Assembly (NCBI GenBank): GCA_902624425.1
Contig: CACNXK010000001.1
Coordinates: forward strand, 1 to 64,000
Length of the DNA stretch: 64,000 bases
From: an uncultured SAR86 cluster bacterium
Lineage (GTDB): Bacteria > Pseudomonadota > Gammaproteobacteria > Magnimaribacterales > D2472
Direction: 5' to 3'
The position numbers were made by a program, and so were the translations under genes. The notes beneath the pieces were generated by a model. The model did not search any database. It was given only the letters and a program-made list of their open reading frames with translations, and was not told the DNA's origin. Positions 1-3,943 of the stretch are shown piece after piece. How positions within the stretch are numbered: position 1 is the stretch's first letter; every line of letters starts with the position of its first letter.

Positions 1-2282
1 GCAGCTACTCCGAAGACGTCGGTCATACTTGAATTGACTCCATCCTCGTCACTAAGATTAAGAATCATAAAATCTACAGCCATGCTGTCGCTAAACCCTA
101 TACTGGTTGTGATATTACCAATGTAATAAGCTCTAATAGAGTCAACGATTGGATTATTTGAGACTCTTTGTTGAAATTCACCTCTTTTTACATATTGAGC
201 AACAGTCGTTAATGTGTTGCCAGATGGAAGATTGGTTTCGTGTCTAAGAGTAATATCCGCTGTAAATTCTGGAGTCTTAGCTAATTGATTACCCTTAACA
301 TTCTCTCTAAGACCATATCTAAGATCTTCTTGCCCAAAGAAGTATTGATATGCATCCACATTATCTAAAACCTCATAATCAGAAGTAACTTCTGAATCTG
401 TGAAAGCCAAGTTCATATCTAAGCTGAGTGAATCTGTTAAAAATCCTGTAAATTCAACTTCAAGACCTGACATCTCTGATTCTGGGATATTGGCTACCCC
501 TCCCCTATAAGGATCTGGGTCAGTAGCTTGAAACTGAAGGTTTTCGTATGAGTATGAGAAATAAGCTAAGTTTGCTCTAGCTCTTCCATCTAAAAATGTT
601 GATTTTAAACCAAGCTCAAGTGACTCAACTGTCTCACTTTCAAATGTTGGGAAAACTAAAGCTGGCGCCACAGGTCTACCTGCTGCAACATCTTCCTCTT
701 CTGTAAATCCAAATGTAAGATTACTTCCGCCAGGCTTGAAACCTCTTGCTAAAGCAAAATATCCCATTATGTCATCAGAAAAATCAACTTCTGCAACCAC
801 TCTTGTTGTAACTTCATCAGTTGTTCCTTCCTCTTTGAAGGACTCAACATTGAGAAAGTTGGTTACATCTGTTTTAAATGTATCTTCTGAATACCTTAAT
901 CCAGATACTACTCTGAATGATTCGCTTAGGCTAAGTGTGGTTTGTCCATATACAGAAAAGGATTCTCTTCCTGGATTTGCATCAGTAAAGAAGTCAACTT
1001 CAGCAGCTGGGCCAAAAATATCAAATCTGCCAGGAATACCATAATCATGATCATAACAATAGCTTGGGTCAGCAAATGGTTCATCGCATAAGTATTTTAT
1101 TCTGCCATCTAGATCATCATCTCTGTAACCTCTGATGACATTTTCTATTTCGTGGTCCATATAAAATGCCCCAACAGTCCAATCTAGCTTTCCATTAAAT
1201 GCAGGCTCGTTAGAAATCAAATTTATTTCAAAAGTCGTTGTGTCAACTAAAGAAGTTTCAGGAGTAAATTCTGCTCTTTGATATGTTGCTCCTGCACCTA
1301 GGCCTGGTATTGATAAAACTGGGTCGAGATAGTTATGTCTATCGTTGTCCCTTACAACTAAGACATCATCTTCTTGAACGCTTGCTATTGCTTTAAGATT
1401 TGCAAAGCCAAGGTCAGATTCATATATTGCTGCAACAACCATTGATGATAGTTCATGCTGAGAAACAGTATCTTGGGAGAGCTTTCTCATGCCTGATGTT
1501 TGATCATCTATTCCTCTAATCGCGGCTCCATTTCTATCAACTTTAAAGTATTGCCCAAAGACTCTGAGGCTAGATGTATCATTAAGATCAAACATCCAGT
1601 CAGTTCTTATGCTTTTATTGTTTGCGTCATCAAGATCCTGACCTGTAAAAACGTTTTTAGTAAAACCGTCTCTTGTCGTTGAAGAAATAGAGAGCCTGGT
1701 TGCAATTTTGTCATTAACAACGAAGTTATTAGATGTGGATACCTTTCTGAGATTGTAATCTCCAAAAGTAACGTTTAGTTTTCCCTCTCCGCCTTCAGTT
1801 GTTGGTGCTTTGCTGATTACATTCACTGCCCCACCAGTTGAGTTTTGACCAAATAGTGTTCCTTGTGGGCCGCGAAGAACTTCAATTCTTTCAACATCCA
1901 AAAAGTCTGTTCCCAATGCAAAGGGTGAAGCAATAAAAACGCCATCCATATGAAAAGCTACTGAAGGAGCAGCGATGGCATTTTGGTTAGTCTCATTTCC
2001 CACACCTCTAATAGATATGATGGTTTTGTATCCCTCATTCTTTGCTACTGTTACACCTGGAACGATAGCGCTGAGATCGGTAAAGGTTGTTATATTTTTC
2101 TCTTCTATATCTGAATCAGTTAATGCAGTTACCGCTTGAGAGATATCCTGAAGACTTTCAGAACGCTTTTCAGCTGTTACTACCACTTCCTCAACTTCTT
2201 GAGCAACGATATTAAGACCGAAGAAGCCTACAAAAGTCACCAAAATAGCTTTTTGAAATAAAATATTTACATAATTTTTCAT
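1..2282 (-). CDS. TonB-dependent outer-membrane receptor (C-terminus cut by window edge)
   Basis: Outer-membrane beta-barrel transporter that imports a ligand using energy from TonB-ExbBD. The frame is open from an ATG at 2282 to the window edge (760 codons), so the extreme C-terminus is missing. The first 28 or so residues are a signal peptide, followed by a TonB-box-like stretch EEVVVTAEKR, then the plug domain with ISIRGVGNET and GPQGTLFGQNSTGGAV, as in the large TonB receptors of marine and sphingomonad-like bacteria. A GGGG Shine-Dalgarno lies 8 nt before the ATG. The leader carries a tandem glutamine-riboswitch-like RNA and a sigma70-type promoter. The purine permease is divergent from it. 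The substrate cannot be read from sequence; a nitrogen-containing ligand is inferred from the riboswitch and neighbour. Confidence 0.95.
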   Translation of the reverse strand, partial: MKNYVNILFQKAILVTFVGFFGLNIVAQEVEEVVVTAEKRSESLQDISQAVTALTDSDIEEKNITTFTDLSAIVPGVTVAKNEGYKTIISIRGVGNETNQNAIAAPSVAFHMDGVFIASPFALGTDFLDVERIEVLRGPQGTLFGQNSTGGAVNVISKAPTTEGGEGKLNVTFGDYNLRKVSTSNNFVVNDKIATRLSISSTTRDGFTKNVFTGQDLDDANNKSIRTDWMFDLNDTSSLRVFGQYFKVDRNGAAIRGIDDQTSGMRKLSQDTVSQHELSSMVVAAIYESDLGFANLKAIASVQEDDVLVVRDNDRHNYLDPVLSIPGLGAGATYQRAEFTPETSLVDTTTFEINLISNEPAFNGKLDWTVGAFYMDHEIENVIRGYRDDDLDGRIKYLCDEPFADPSYCYDHDYGIPGRFDIFGPAAEVDFFTDANPGRESFSVYGQTTLSLSESFRVVSGLRYSEDTFKTDVTNFLNVESFKEEGTTDEVTTRVVAEVDFSDDIMGYFALARGFKPGGSNLTFGFTEEEDVAAGRPVAPALVFPTFESETVESLELGLKSTFLDGRARANLAYFSYSYENLQFQATDPDPYRGGVANIPESEMSGLEVEFTGFLTDSLSLDMNLAFTDSEVTSDYEVLDNVDAYQYFFGQEDLRYGLRENVKGNQLAKTPEFTADITLRHETNLPSGNTLTTVAQYVKRGEFQQRVSNNPIVDSIRAYYIGNITTSIGFSDSMAVDFMILNLSDEDGVNSSMTDVFGVA

Positions 2283-2316
2283 AAAATTTTCCCCGTAAAG
2301 TTTTTTATTTTGTATT

Positions 2317-2357
2317 TTGTCTGCAGGACAATTGAGGTTAAACTCGATCTGTTTAAC
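2317..2357 (-). other. Two leader hairpins between the aptamers and the receptor start
   Basis: On the minus strand, a perfect 7-bp stem GTTAAAC/GTTTAAC with a 7-nt loop (2357-2337) is followed by a 5-bp stem TTGTC/GACAA with a 5-nt loop (2331-2317). Neither is followed by a U-run, so they do not look like an intrinsic terminator. They are candidates for the expression platform of the riboswitch, acting on translation or Rho. The rest of the 2283-2653 gap holds no gene, and I see no convincing promoter for the divergent permease. Confidence 0.4.
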
Positions 2358-2362
2358 AAGCG

Positions 2363-2460
2363 GCGTTCCTTCGGTTTTACCCTACTTCCGTCTCCTAAGA
2401 GATGAACGATTTTTGCGTTCCTTCAGCTTTCACTTACTTCCGACTCCGAAGAGTTGAACG
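2363..2460 (-). promoter_or_regulatory. Tandem glnA RNA (glutamine riboswitch) aptamers in the TonB-receptor leader
   Basis: Two 46-nt units, read on the minus strand at 2460-2415 and 2408-2363, are separated by 6 nt. Each begins CGTTC and ends GAAGGAACGC, so the ends pair as P1 (CGTTC/GAACG). Each has a 4-bp P2 with a tetraloop: ACTC-TTCG-GAGT in the first and TCTC-TTAG-GAGA in the second, a compensatory change. This is followed by the conserved CGGAAGTA and a short P3 (AGT-GAAA-GCT in the first, GG...CC in the second). This arrangement matches the glnA RNA / L-glutamine riboswitch as I remember it, a class known from cyanobacteria and marine metagenomes and often found in tandem. The units sit 80 nt upstream of the receptor ATG, in its transcribed leader. 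Confidence 0.88.
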
Positions 2461-2538
2461 ATTTTAACTCACTATTAACTCAAATAATTGAGCTCCTTTT
2501 TAACCATGGAGATGGTGCAAATCAAATCACAATGTAAA

Positions 2539-2567
2539 ATAATACTTTCTAAAATTTAACTTAACAA
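2539..2567 (-). promoter_or_regulatory. Sigma70-type promoter of the TonB receptor
   Basis: On the minus strand, TTGTTA (2567-2562), a 17-bp spacer and TATTAT (2544-2539) predict a start near 2531. That gives a leader of roughly 250 nt that contains both riboswitch aptamers. A small inverted repeat CTCAA-TTAT-TTGAG (2492-2479) lies between promoter and aptamers. Confidence 0.55.
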
Positions 2568-2653
2568 GCTTCAAATCAACATTTGGCGACTTTTTTTGTT
2601 TTTTTTGCTTTAAAAAGTAAATTAATAACTTGAAACCTGTAAAATTCCCTTTA

Positions 2654-3943
2654 ATGCTAGAAAAAATCTTCAAACTTGAATCAAATAATACTTCTCTAGG
2701 ACAGGAGGTTTTAGCCGGTGTTACGACCTTTGTAACAATGGCATATATTATTTTTGTTAATCCTCAAATGATGGCTGTGAGCGGTATGGACTTGGGTGCA
2801 AGCTTTGTAGGCACATGCCTAGCAGCATCATTGGCTTGCATCATTATGGGTATTTATTCTAACTGGCCAGTGAGTTTGGCTCCGGGTATGGGTTTGAATG
2901 CCTTTTTTACCTATACAGTGGTAGGCGAAATGGGATACTCGTGGGAAGTAGCTTTGGGCGCAGTGTTTTTAGCAGGTGTGCTATTTTTTATAATGAGTGT
3001 TACCAGATTAAGAAGGTGGATGCTGGATAGCATTCCCCTCAACCTTCGTATTGCTATGGGAGCCGGAGTTGGTCTTTTCATAGGCTTCATAGGTTTAAAA
3101 AACGGAGGGTTAATCGTTGCTAATAATGCAACTTTTCTCAGTCTTGGTGATTTTACAAACTCTGAAACATTATTAGCTGCATTAGGCTTTTTAATAATTT
3201 GTTCATTATCAGTAAGAAATATTCCTGGATCTATCCTTATAGGTGTAATTGTCATAACAATATCTTCAATTTTACTTGGGCTTATTGAGTTTCGTGGATT
3301 AGTCTCTATGCCTCCAAGTATTGCTCCAACATTTATGAAAATGGATATCCTTGGTGCACTTGATATCGCAATGCTGAGTGTTGTGATGTCATTCTTGTTT
3401 GTAAATTTATTTGATACTGCTGGAACCTTGTTGGGTGTTGCAACAAGAGCAAAAATTACTGATGAATATGGAAATGCAAAGAACTTTGATAAGGCTCTAA
3501 AAGCTGATAGTGGCTCTAGCATATTTGGAACTTTTTTTGGTTGCTCTCCGGTGACAAGTTATGTGGAGAGCTCTGCTGGAGTTGAGGCTGGGGGAAGGAC
3601 TGGTTTAACTACAGTTATAGTTGGTCTTTTATTTTTAGTTGCAATATTCTTCTCTCCTTTAGCTGCAATAGTTCCTGCTTATGCCACTGCTGGGGCTTTA
3701 ATTTATGTATCTATTTTAATGATGAGCGGTATGGAAAAACTAAACTGGTCTGATTCGACAGAGCTTTTACCAGCTTTAGTTATTATCGTTATGATTCCCC
3801 TCACTTTTTCTATTGCGAATGGAATTGCGCTTGGATTTTTAGCATATGTTGTGCTTAAGGTTTCAAGTGGTCAAATCAAAAATATCTCATCTGGTGCATG
3901 GTTTTTAACTATTGTTTTTGTTTCGAAGTTTCTCTTTTTATAA
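2654..3943 (+). CDS. NCS2-family purine (guanine/hypoxanthine/xanthine) permease, AzgA type
   Basis: Inner-membrane purine:proton symporter of the AzgA branch of NCS2. Family marks are the N-terminus MLEKIFKL followed by EVLAGVTTFVTMAYI, then NLFDTAGTLLGV near residue 260 and a late GCSPVTSYVESSAGVEAGGR loop. About 12 hydrophobic segments span 429 residues, the usual length. I chose the ATG at 2654, which matches the family start. A TTG eight codons earlier (2630) is also open. Neither has a clear Shine-Dalgarno. The gene is divergent from the riboswitch-controlled TonB receptor, and purines are nitrogen-rich, which suggests that outer and inner steps of one uptake route are paired here. That link is inference. 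Confidence 0.9.
   Translation: MLEKIFKLESNNTSLGQEVLAGVTTFVTMAYIIFVNPQMMAVSGMDLGASFVGTCLAASLACIIMGIYSNWPVSLAPGMGLNAFFTYTVVGEMGYSWEVALGAVFLAGVLFFIMSVTRLRRWMLDSIPLNLRIAMGAGVGLFIGFIGLKNGGLIVANNATFLSLGDFTNSETLLAALGFLIICSLSVRNIPGSILIGVIVITISSILLGLIEFRGLVSMPPSIAPTFMKMDILGALDIAMLSVVMSFLFVNLFDTAGTLLGVATRAKITDEYGNAKNFDKALKADSGSSIFGTFFGCSPVTSYVESSAGVEAGGRTGLTTVIVGLLFLVAIFFSPLAAIVPAYATAGALIYVSILMMSGMEKLNWSDSTELLPALVIIVMIPLTFSIANGIALGFLAYVVLKVSSGQIKNISSGAWFLTIVFVSKFLFL

Follow-up and report, generated by a model that had tools for sequence, protein, structure and literature searches.

The window analysed here is a 64 kb stretch of DNA from a SAR86 bacterium. The features at its left end are a gene for a TonB-dependent receptor (TBDR), the leader of this gene and a divergent permease gene, as follows.

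3..2282, minus strand: TBDR, its 3′ end cut off by the edge of the window and contig
2291..2294, minus strand: GGGG Shine-Dalgarno (SD) sequence, invariant in congeners
2321..2328, minus strand: conserved TCCTGCAG element, a possible anti-SD
2337..2357, minus strand: hairpin C, GTTAAAC/GTTTAAC, which may form part of the expression platform
2360..2410, minus strand: glutamine-I aptamer unit 2, RF01739 match of 59.6 bits
2412..2462, minus strand: glutamine-I aptamer unit 1, RF01739 match of 63.5 bits
2479..2492, minus strand: hairpin B, CTCAA/TTGAG, its stem maintained by two-sided changes
2493..2516, minus strand: 5′ module with the stem ACCAT/ATGGT (2516-2512 with 2507-2503) and the pseudoknot CTCC/GGAG (2511-2508 with 2496-2493)
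2539..2567, minus strand: putative sigma70-type promoter TTGTTA-17-TATTAT, from which transcription is expected to start near 2532
2630..3943, plus strand: AzgA-type purine permease (NCS2), divergent (PF00860, 1.4e-45; AZG1, 1.1e-63)

The receptor contains the Plug (PF07715, 1.5e-17) and barrel (PF00593, 6.9e-29) domains, both above cut-off, and its protein relatives at 81-89% identity come from SAR86 single-cell genomes and bins. An earlier sequence-only reading had described two leader units with the plan of the glnA RNA in a gammaproteobacterium; SAR86 is such a host. When the window was searched with the Rfam models by Infernal, both units matched RF01739 over its full length (model positions 1-53) and above its gathering score of 35 bits, and nothing else in the 64 kb matched an Rfam family. 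Glutamine-II (Downstream-peptide, RF01704) was rejected as the family, with 15.4 and 11 bits against a threshold of 33. The units lie where they had been placed, at 2363-2460, but are slightly longer, spanning 2462-2360. The compensatory change in P2 from ACTC/GAGT to TCTC/GAGA is present in the sequence, and so are the hairpin at 2357-2337 and the GGGG at 2294-2291 that the same reading had listed. In the sense orientation, the aptamer pair ends 77 nt 5′ of the TBDR ATG at 2282, on the same strand.

All consensus core positions are kept in the RF01739 alignment of the window aptamers. The conserved core, CGGAAGUA and GAAGGAACG, and P1 are present in both window units as well as in all eight congeneric TBDR leaders that could be read. 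P3 of unit 2 contains a non-standard pair in the window genome (GGGTAAAACC), as opposed to GGTGAAAACC in the congeners. The refutation tests run on the sequence were all favourable to a tandem glutamine riboswitch on the TBDR, for which ligand binding is predicted.

Upstream of the aptamers, the putative promoter ends 77 nt 5′ of the first unit; its scan score (9/12) is by itself not above chance, and both hexamers are invariant across 8 congeneric leaders. The 5′ module, comprising the stem/pseudoknot and hairpin B, is common to the leaders of the TBDR, the type II and type I glutamine synthetases (GSII and GSI) and one AmtB. Among 17 leaders, the pseudoknot occurs in a compensatory (TTCC/GGAA) and a wobble (CTCC/GGGG) variant and is mismatched only once, and hairpin B shows many two-sided changes (CCC/GGG, CCCGT/GTGGG, CCCAT/ATGGG, CCT/AGG). 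In one congener, the TBDR leader (L061, G003) is devoid of the whole 5′ pseudoknot/hairpin block (cf. window 2512-2488) and retains both aptamers. The sequence TGCACCAT...ATGGT in the 5′ module could also be taken for the relic of an NtrC site, but the covariation of the pseudoknot and the hairpin is better suited to an RNA element. A small upstream ORF in this module (ATG GTT AAA...) was rejected because length differences in the loop of hairpin B would break its reading frame.

Downstream of the aptamers, hairpin C is paired in 100% of the cells of an alignment of 16 leaders, with one-sided wobble changes only. The CTGCA of the TCCTGCAG element is found in 16/16 leaders, and its pairing with the SD is inconsistent among them. 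The receptor strand has no intrinsic terminator from the aptamers to the ATG, which rules out a terminator as the expression platform. Folding with P1 forced or forbidden produced no consistent change in SD accessibility in seven groups of leaders, and the thermodynamic stability of the whole leader was indistinguishable from that of shuffled sequences. We infer that control is translational rather than transcriptional.

We then define f1 and g1 as the family and genus of the window, and f2 to f4 as other families of the order. RF01739 matches above the cut-off are found in 36 of 61 genomes, consisting of the window's genome and its relatives. One more match, upstream of GSII, is found in the genome that contains the window (0.96 Mb, 78.5% complete); this leader is probably also tandem, because the fragment 5′ of the aptamer ends in GAAGGAACGC at the contig edge. 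The aptamer targets in g1 are GSII (mostly tandem), the operon of a TorF-like porin and AmtB (double or triple) and the TBDR. Tandem aptamers with both units precede the TBDR in 8/8 g1 genomes with a readable leader, a count that leaves out G006 (receptor start off the contig) and G009 (no receptor match). The f4 aptamers are located on GSII, on TorF-AmtB and, in one genome, on GSI, and a genus of f3, g16, carries the aptamer on glutamate synthase. In a sample of the class, 3 of 369 genomes exceeded the RF01739 cut-off, two of which are SAR86.

The genes of the Ntr system are distributed differently between g1 and the other f1 genomes. Sigma54 (searched with two models), full-length NtrC and GlnD are each absent from all ten g1 genomes, versus presence in 26/27, 27/27 and 26/27 other f1 genomes, respectively; PII is found in 1/10 versus 27/27, and the sole g1 PII gene resides in the AmtB operon of G006. 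If a gene were present, incompleteness would hide it from all ten g1 genomes with a probability of ~6e-9. As sigma54, NtrC, PII and GlnD exist in f2 and E. coli, their absence from g1 represents a loss. The family f4, with aptamers on GSII and AmtB, is also devoid of sigma54, full NtrC, PII and GlnD. In f3, g16 is without sigma54 and has only the receiver and C-terminal parts of NtrC; in G044, G047 and G053, a single short frame matches only NtrC residues 1-154 and 372-463, a pattern suggestive of the loss of the AAA+ domain for sigma54 activation.

The TBDR orthologues outside g1, mostly at 54-73% identity, are all without the aptamer. We searched their upstream regions for a sigma54-type element, defined as a strict TGGCAY-N5-TTGCW within 250 nt, and detected it in 26 of the 29 aptamer-less loci. 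Such sites number 29 in 0.9 Mb of strand from these loci, so that 0.008 are expected per locus (binomial 1e-51, a value that ignores the relatedness of the loci). The element is missing from all g1 TBDR leaders. In the sister genera within f1, it is also present at 12/15 GSII genes and 13/13 AmtB operons, as well as 2/2 AmtB operons in f2, and it was not found on the f3 orthologues or on GSII and the TBDR in f2. Thus, the sister genera have both the sigma54 gene in the genome and the element upstream, and g1 has neither. Across whole genomes, the motif is not clearly rarer in g1, which lacks sigma54, and its counts do not discriminate for regulon loss; the argument therefore rests on the position of the sites. 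Taken together, the g1 aptamers and the sister-genus sites at GSII, AmtB and the TBDR indicate that the same three units carry either switch. The sites in the sister genera would be NtrC-dependent.

It is likely that a tandem riboswitch replaced the sigma54/NtrC-type control of a purine-linked TBDR and turns it off at high glutamine, a reading supported at the sequence level by the aptamers and their conservation, the Ntr gene loss, the sister-genus sites and the purine neighbours. On the scale of the regulon, g1 probably dropped sigma54-NtrC-GlnD and nearly all PII, while GSII, TorF-AmtB and the TBDR each moved to tandem or triple glutamine riboswitches. In the proposed mechanism, a sigma70-type promoter would transcribe the tandem glutamine-I leader of the TBDR, the ancestral sigma54 (NtrC-type) promoter having been replaced after g1 lost sigma54, NtrC, GlnD and nearly all PII. 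Under plentiful glutamine, both aptamers would be bound and TBDR expression would fall; under scarce glutamine, the TBDR would be made and would import a compound rich in nitrogen, for which a purine is the most likely candidate. This proposed regulon-wide change from sigma54/NtrC-type control to RNA sensing, together with the purine neighbourhood of the receptor, is what goes beyond the sequence-only reading.

The AzgA-type permease adjoins the TBDR in nearly all relatives, in which a phosphoribosyltransferase that closely resembles purine enzymes comes after the TBDR; GMP synthase (GuaA) and IMP dehydrogenase (GuaB) are near the TBDR at about half of the loci. Because these genes adjoin it, purine uptake is the likely role of the TBDR and our best guess. 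Purines are nitrogen-rich and their de novo synthesis uses up glutamine, so glutamine control of the TBDR would be sensible. The strongest rival, which we regard as unlikely but deserving of real weight, is that the substrate of the TBDR is not a purine but an iron-siderophore or some other compound, so that the TBDR is linked to nitrogen indirectly. By sequence, its nearest named models and structures are indeed siderophore, colicin and B12 receptors, mostly over the plug. However, the conserved purine neighbours argue against such a substrate, and both the sigma54 and the riboswitch states of the TBDR indicate nitrogen.

The direction of switching could also be the reverse, so that glutamine raises TBDR expression; this seems rather improbable. 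Sigma54 promoters with NtrC act at low glutamine, and an ON switch would invert this logic: in g1, the same element stands on GSII and AmtB, in the position of the sister sigma54 promoters. In favor of an ON switch, the predicted SD accessibility shows no consistent effect of P1 and the platform is a candidate only. Moreover, cyanobacterial glutamine riboswitches turn the gene on upon glutamine, and both experimentally studied types, gifB and type 2, are activated by glutamine binding (PMC6316151). The gifB riboswitch belongs to the same aptamer class and is likewise tied to nitrogen status, but it activates an inhibitor of glutamine synthetase (PMC6316151), whereas the SAR86 element precedes uptake and assimilation genes. 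Repression is therefore expected in SAR86.

As for which control is older, a tree built from 55 receptors places the aptamer TBDRs in one clade (100/100). The sister of this clade (99/97) consists of sigma54-type orthologues, and additional sigma54-type clades lie outside. This nesting and the Ntr genes of f2 suggest that sigma54 control is older and the riboswitch derived. The opposite polarity, by which the sister genera gained sigma54 promoters and g1 kept an older RNA control without any replacement, is a poor prospect. It draws on the f2 and f3 orthologues without either element, on the aptamers in other families of the order and on the poorly resolved GSII tree, which was built to see if gene and leader module had moved together between g1 and f4 and in which f4 does not group with g1. 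The well-supported nesting of the aptamer TBDRs among sigma54-type orthologues speaks against it, as does the occurrence of the Ntr genes in f2 and E. coli, which makes their absence from g1 a loss. It is very improbable that the aptamers have ceased to report glutamine, either as relics or because they bind a different ligand: the disturbed P3 pair of unit 2 in the window genome would fit, and a covariance score does not reveal ligand specificity, but the consensus core is fully kept, both units are found in 8/8 congeneric leaders, and the same units also belong to genes for glutamine synthetase and the ammonium transporter.

The SAR86 element shares sequence, structure and tandem layout with the known glutamine-I riboswitch (glnA RNA, RF01739), and differs in its TBDR target, its SAR86 gammaproteobacterial host and the addition to the leader of a 5′ pseudoknot/hairpin module and a 3′ hairpin C, which are common to several genes. 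Targets already known are GS, PII, GOGAT and Amt (PMC2864571), and a phage case exists (PMC9004378). According to a 2018 review, glutamine riboswitches are restricted to cyanobacteria, and sequences from uncultured organisms in the environment are the sole source of the links to GS, PII and Amt (PMC6316151). Tandem glutamine aptamers are also known, with 157 doublets and 4 triplets (PMC9481103); like these pseudo-cooperative riboswitches, the SAR86 leaders hold two aptamers of the same class, with triplets on AmtB, but no expression platform belonging to each unit is identifiable here. The Ntr system (sigma54, NtrBC, PII, GlnD) governs the same three transcription units in the sister genera, judging from the promoter motifs; it is a protein cascade with promoter activation and is absent in g1.

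In the literature searched, mostly outside subscription journals, we found no report of a TBDR target, in agreement with the sequence-only reading, nor of a SAR86 host or a replacement of sigma54/Ntr. Hence the riboswitch class is old, and the target, the host and the wholesale Ntr replacement appear undescribed. If true, an abundant ocean lineage has, in the course of genome streamlining, replaced a global nitrogen regulon based on proteins target by target with a single class of riboswitch. SAR86 would be one host accounting for the environmental riboswitch sequences linked to GS, PII and Amt, and the targets of the class would extend to outer-membrane uptake. The sigma54 promoters of the sister genera provide an independent mark of the TBDR as a nitrogen-responsive gene.

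Several other aptamer loci were observed. Three aptamers in a row precede TorF-AmtB at L045, L047 and L048, where the loop ACAGGA of an inter-aptamer hairpin is complementary to a conserved TCCTG downstream. In other SAR86 genera, the aptamer is located upstream of short YRG-rich proteins (L085, L087, L088, L069); the only one tested, from L085, gave a weak match below cut-off to DUF4278, a domain in cyanobacterial glutamine synthetase inhibitors. Very short conserved ORFs (e.g. MNALNIQKK...) are directly preceded by tandem aptamers at L062, L063, L065, L070, L072, L073, L082 and L036, with an SD-sequestering hairpin, CATCTTTTTAAAAGGAGATG, beside P1; these ORFs possibly encode small nitrogen regulators. 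At L058, L064 and L084, two conserved genes come after the aptamer, the first of which encodes a circularly permuted ATP-grasp protein (PF14403 in L064). At L078, L079 and L080, it precedes a protein of 71-74 aa (weak DUF4177 match in L080, the one tested), after which come a second small gene and an apparent amino-acid permease gene. In a non-SAR86 gammaproteobacterium with a 1.1 Mb genome (G344), single aptamers are found upstream of apparent genes for the large and small subunits of glutamate synthase (L215 and L216), each followed by a strong hairpin, CACCAAAC/GTTTGGTG, identical in both.
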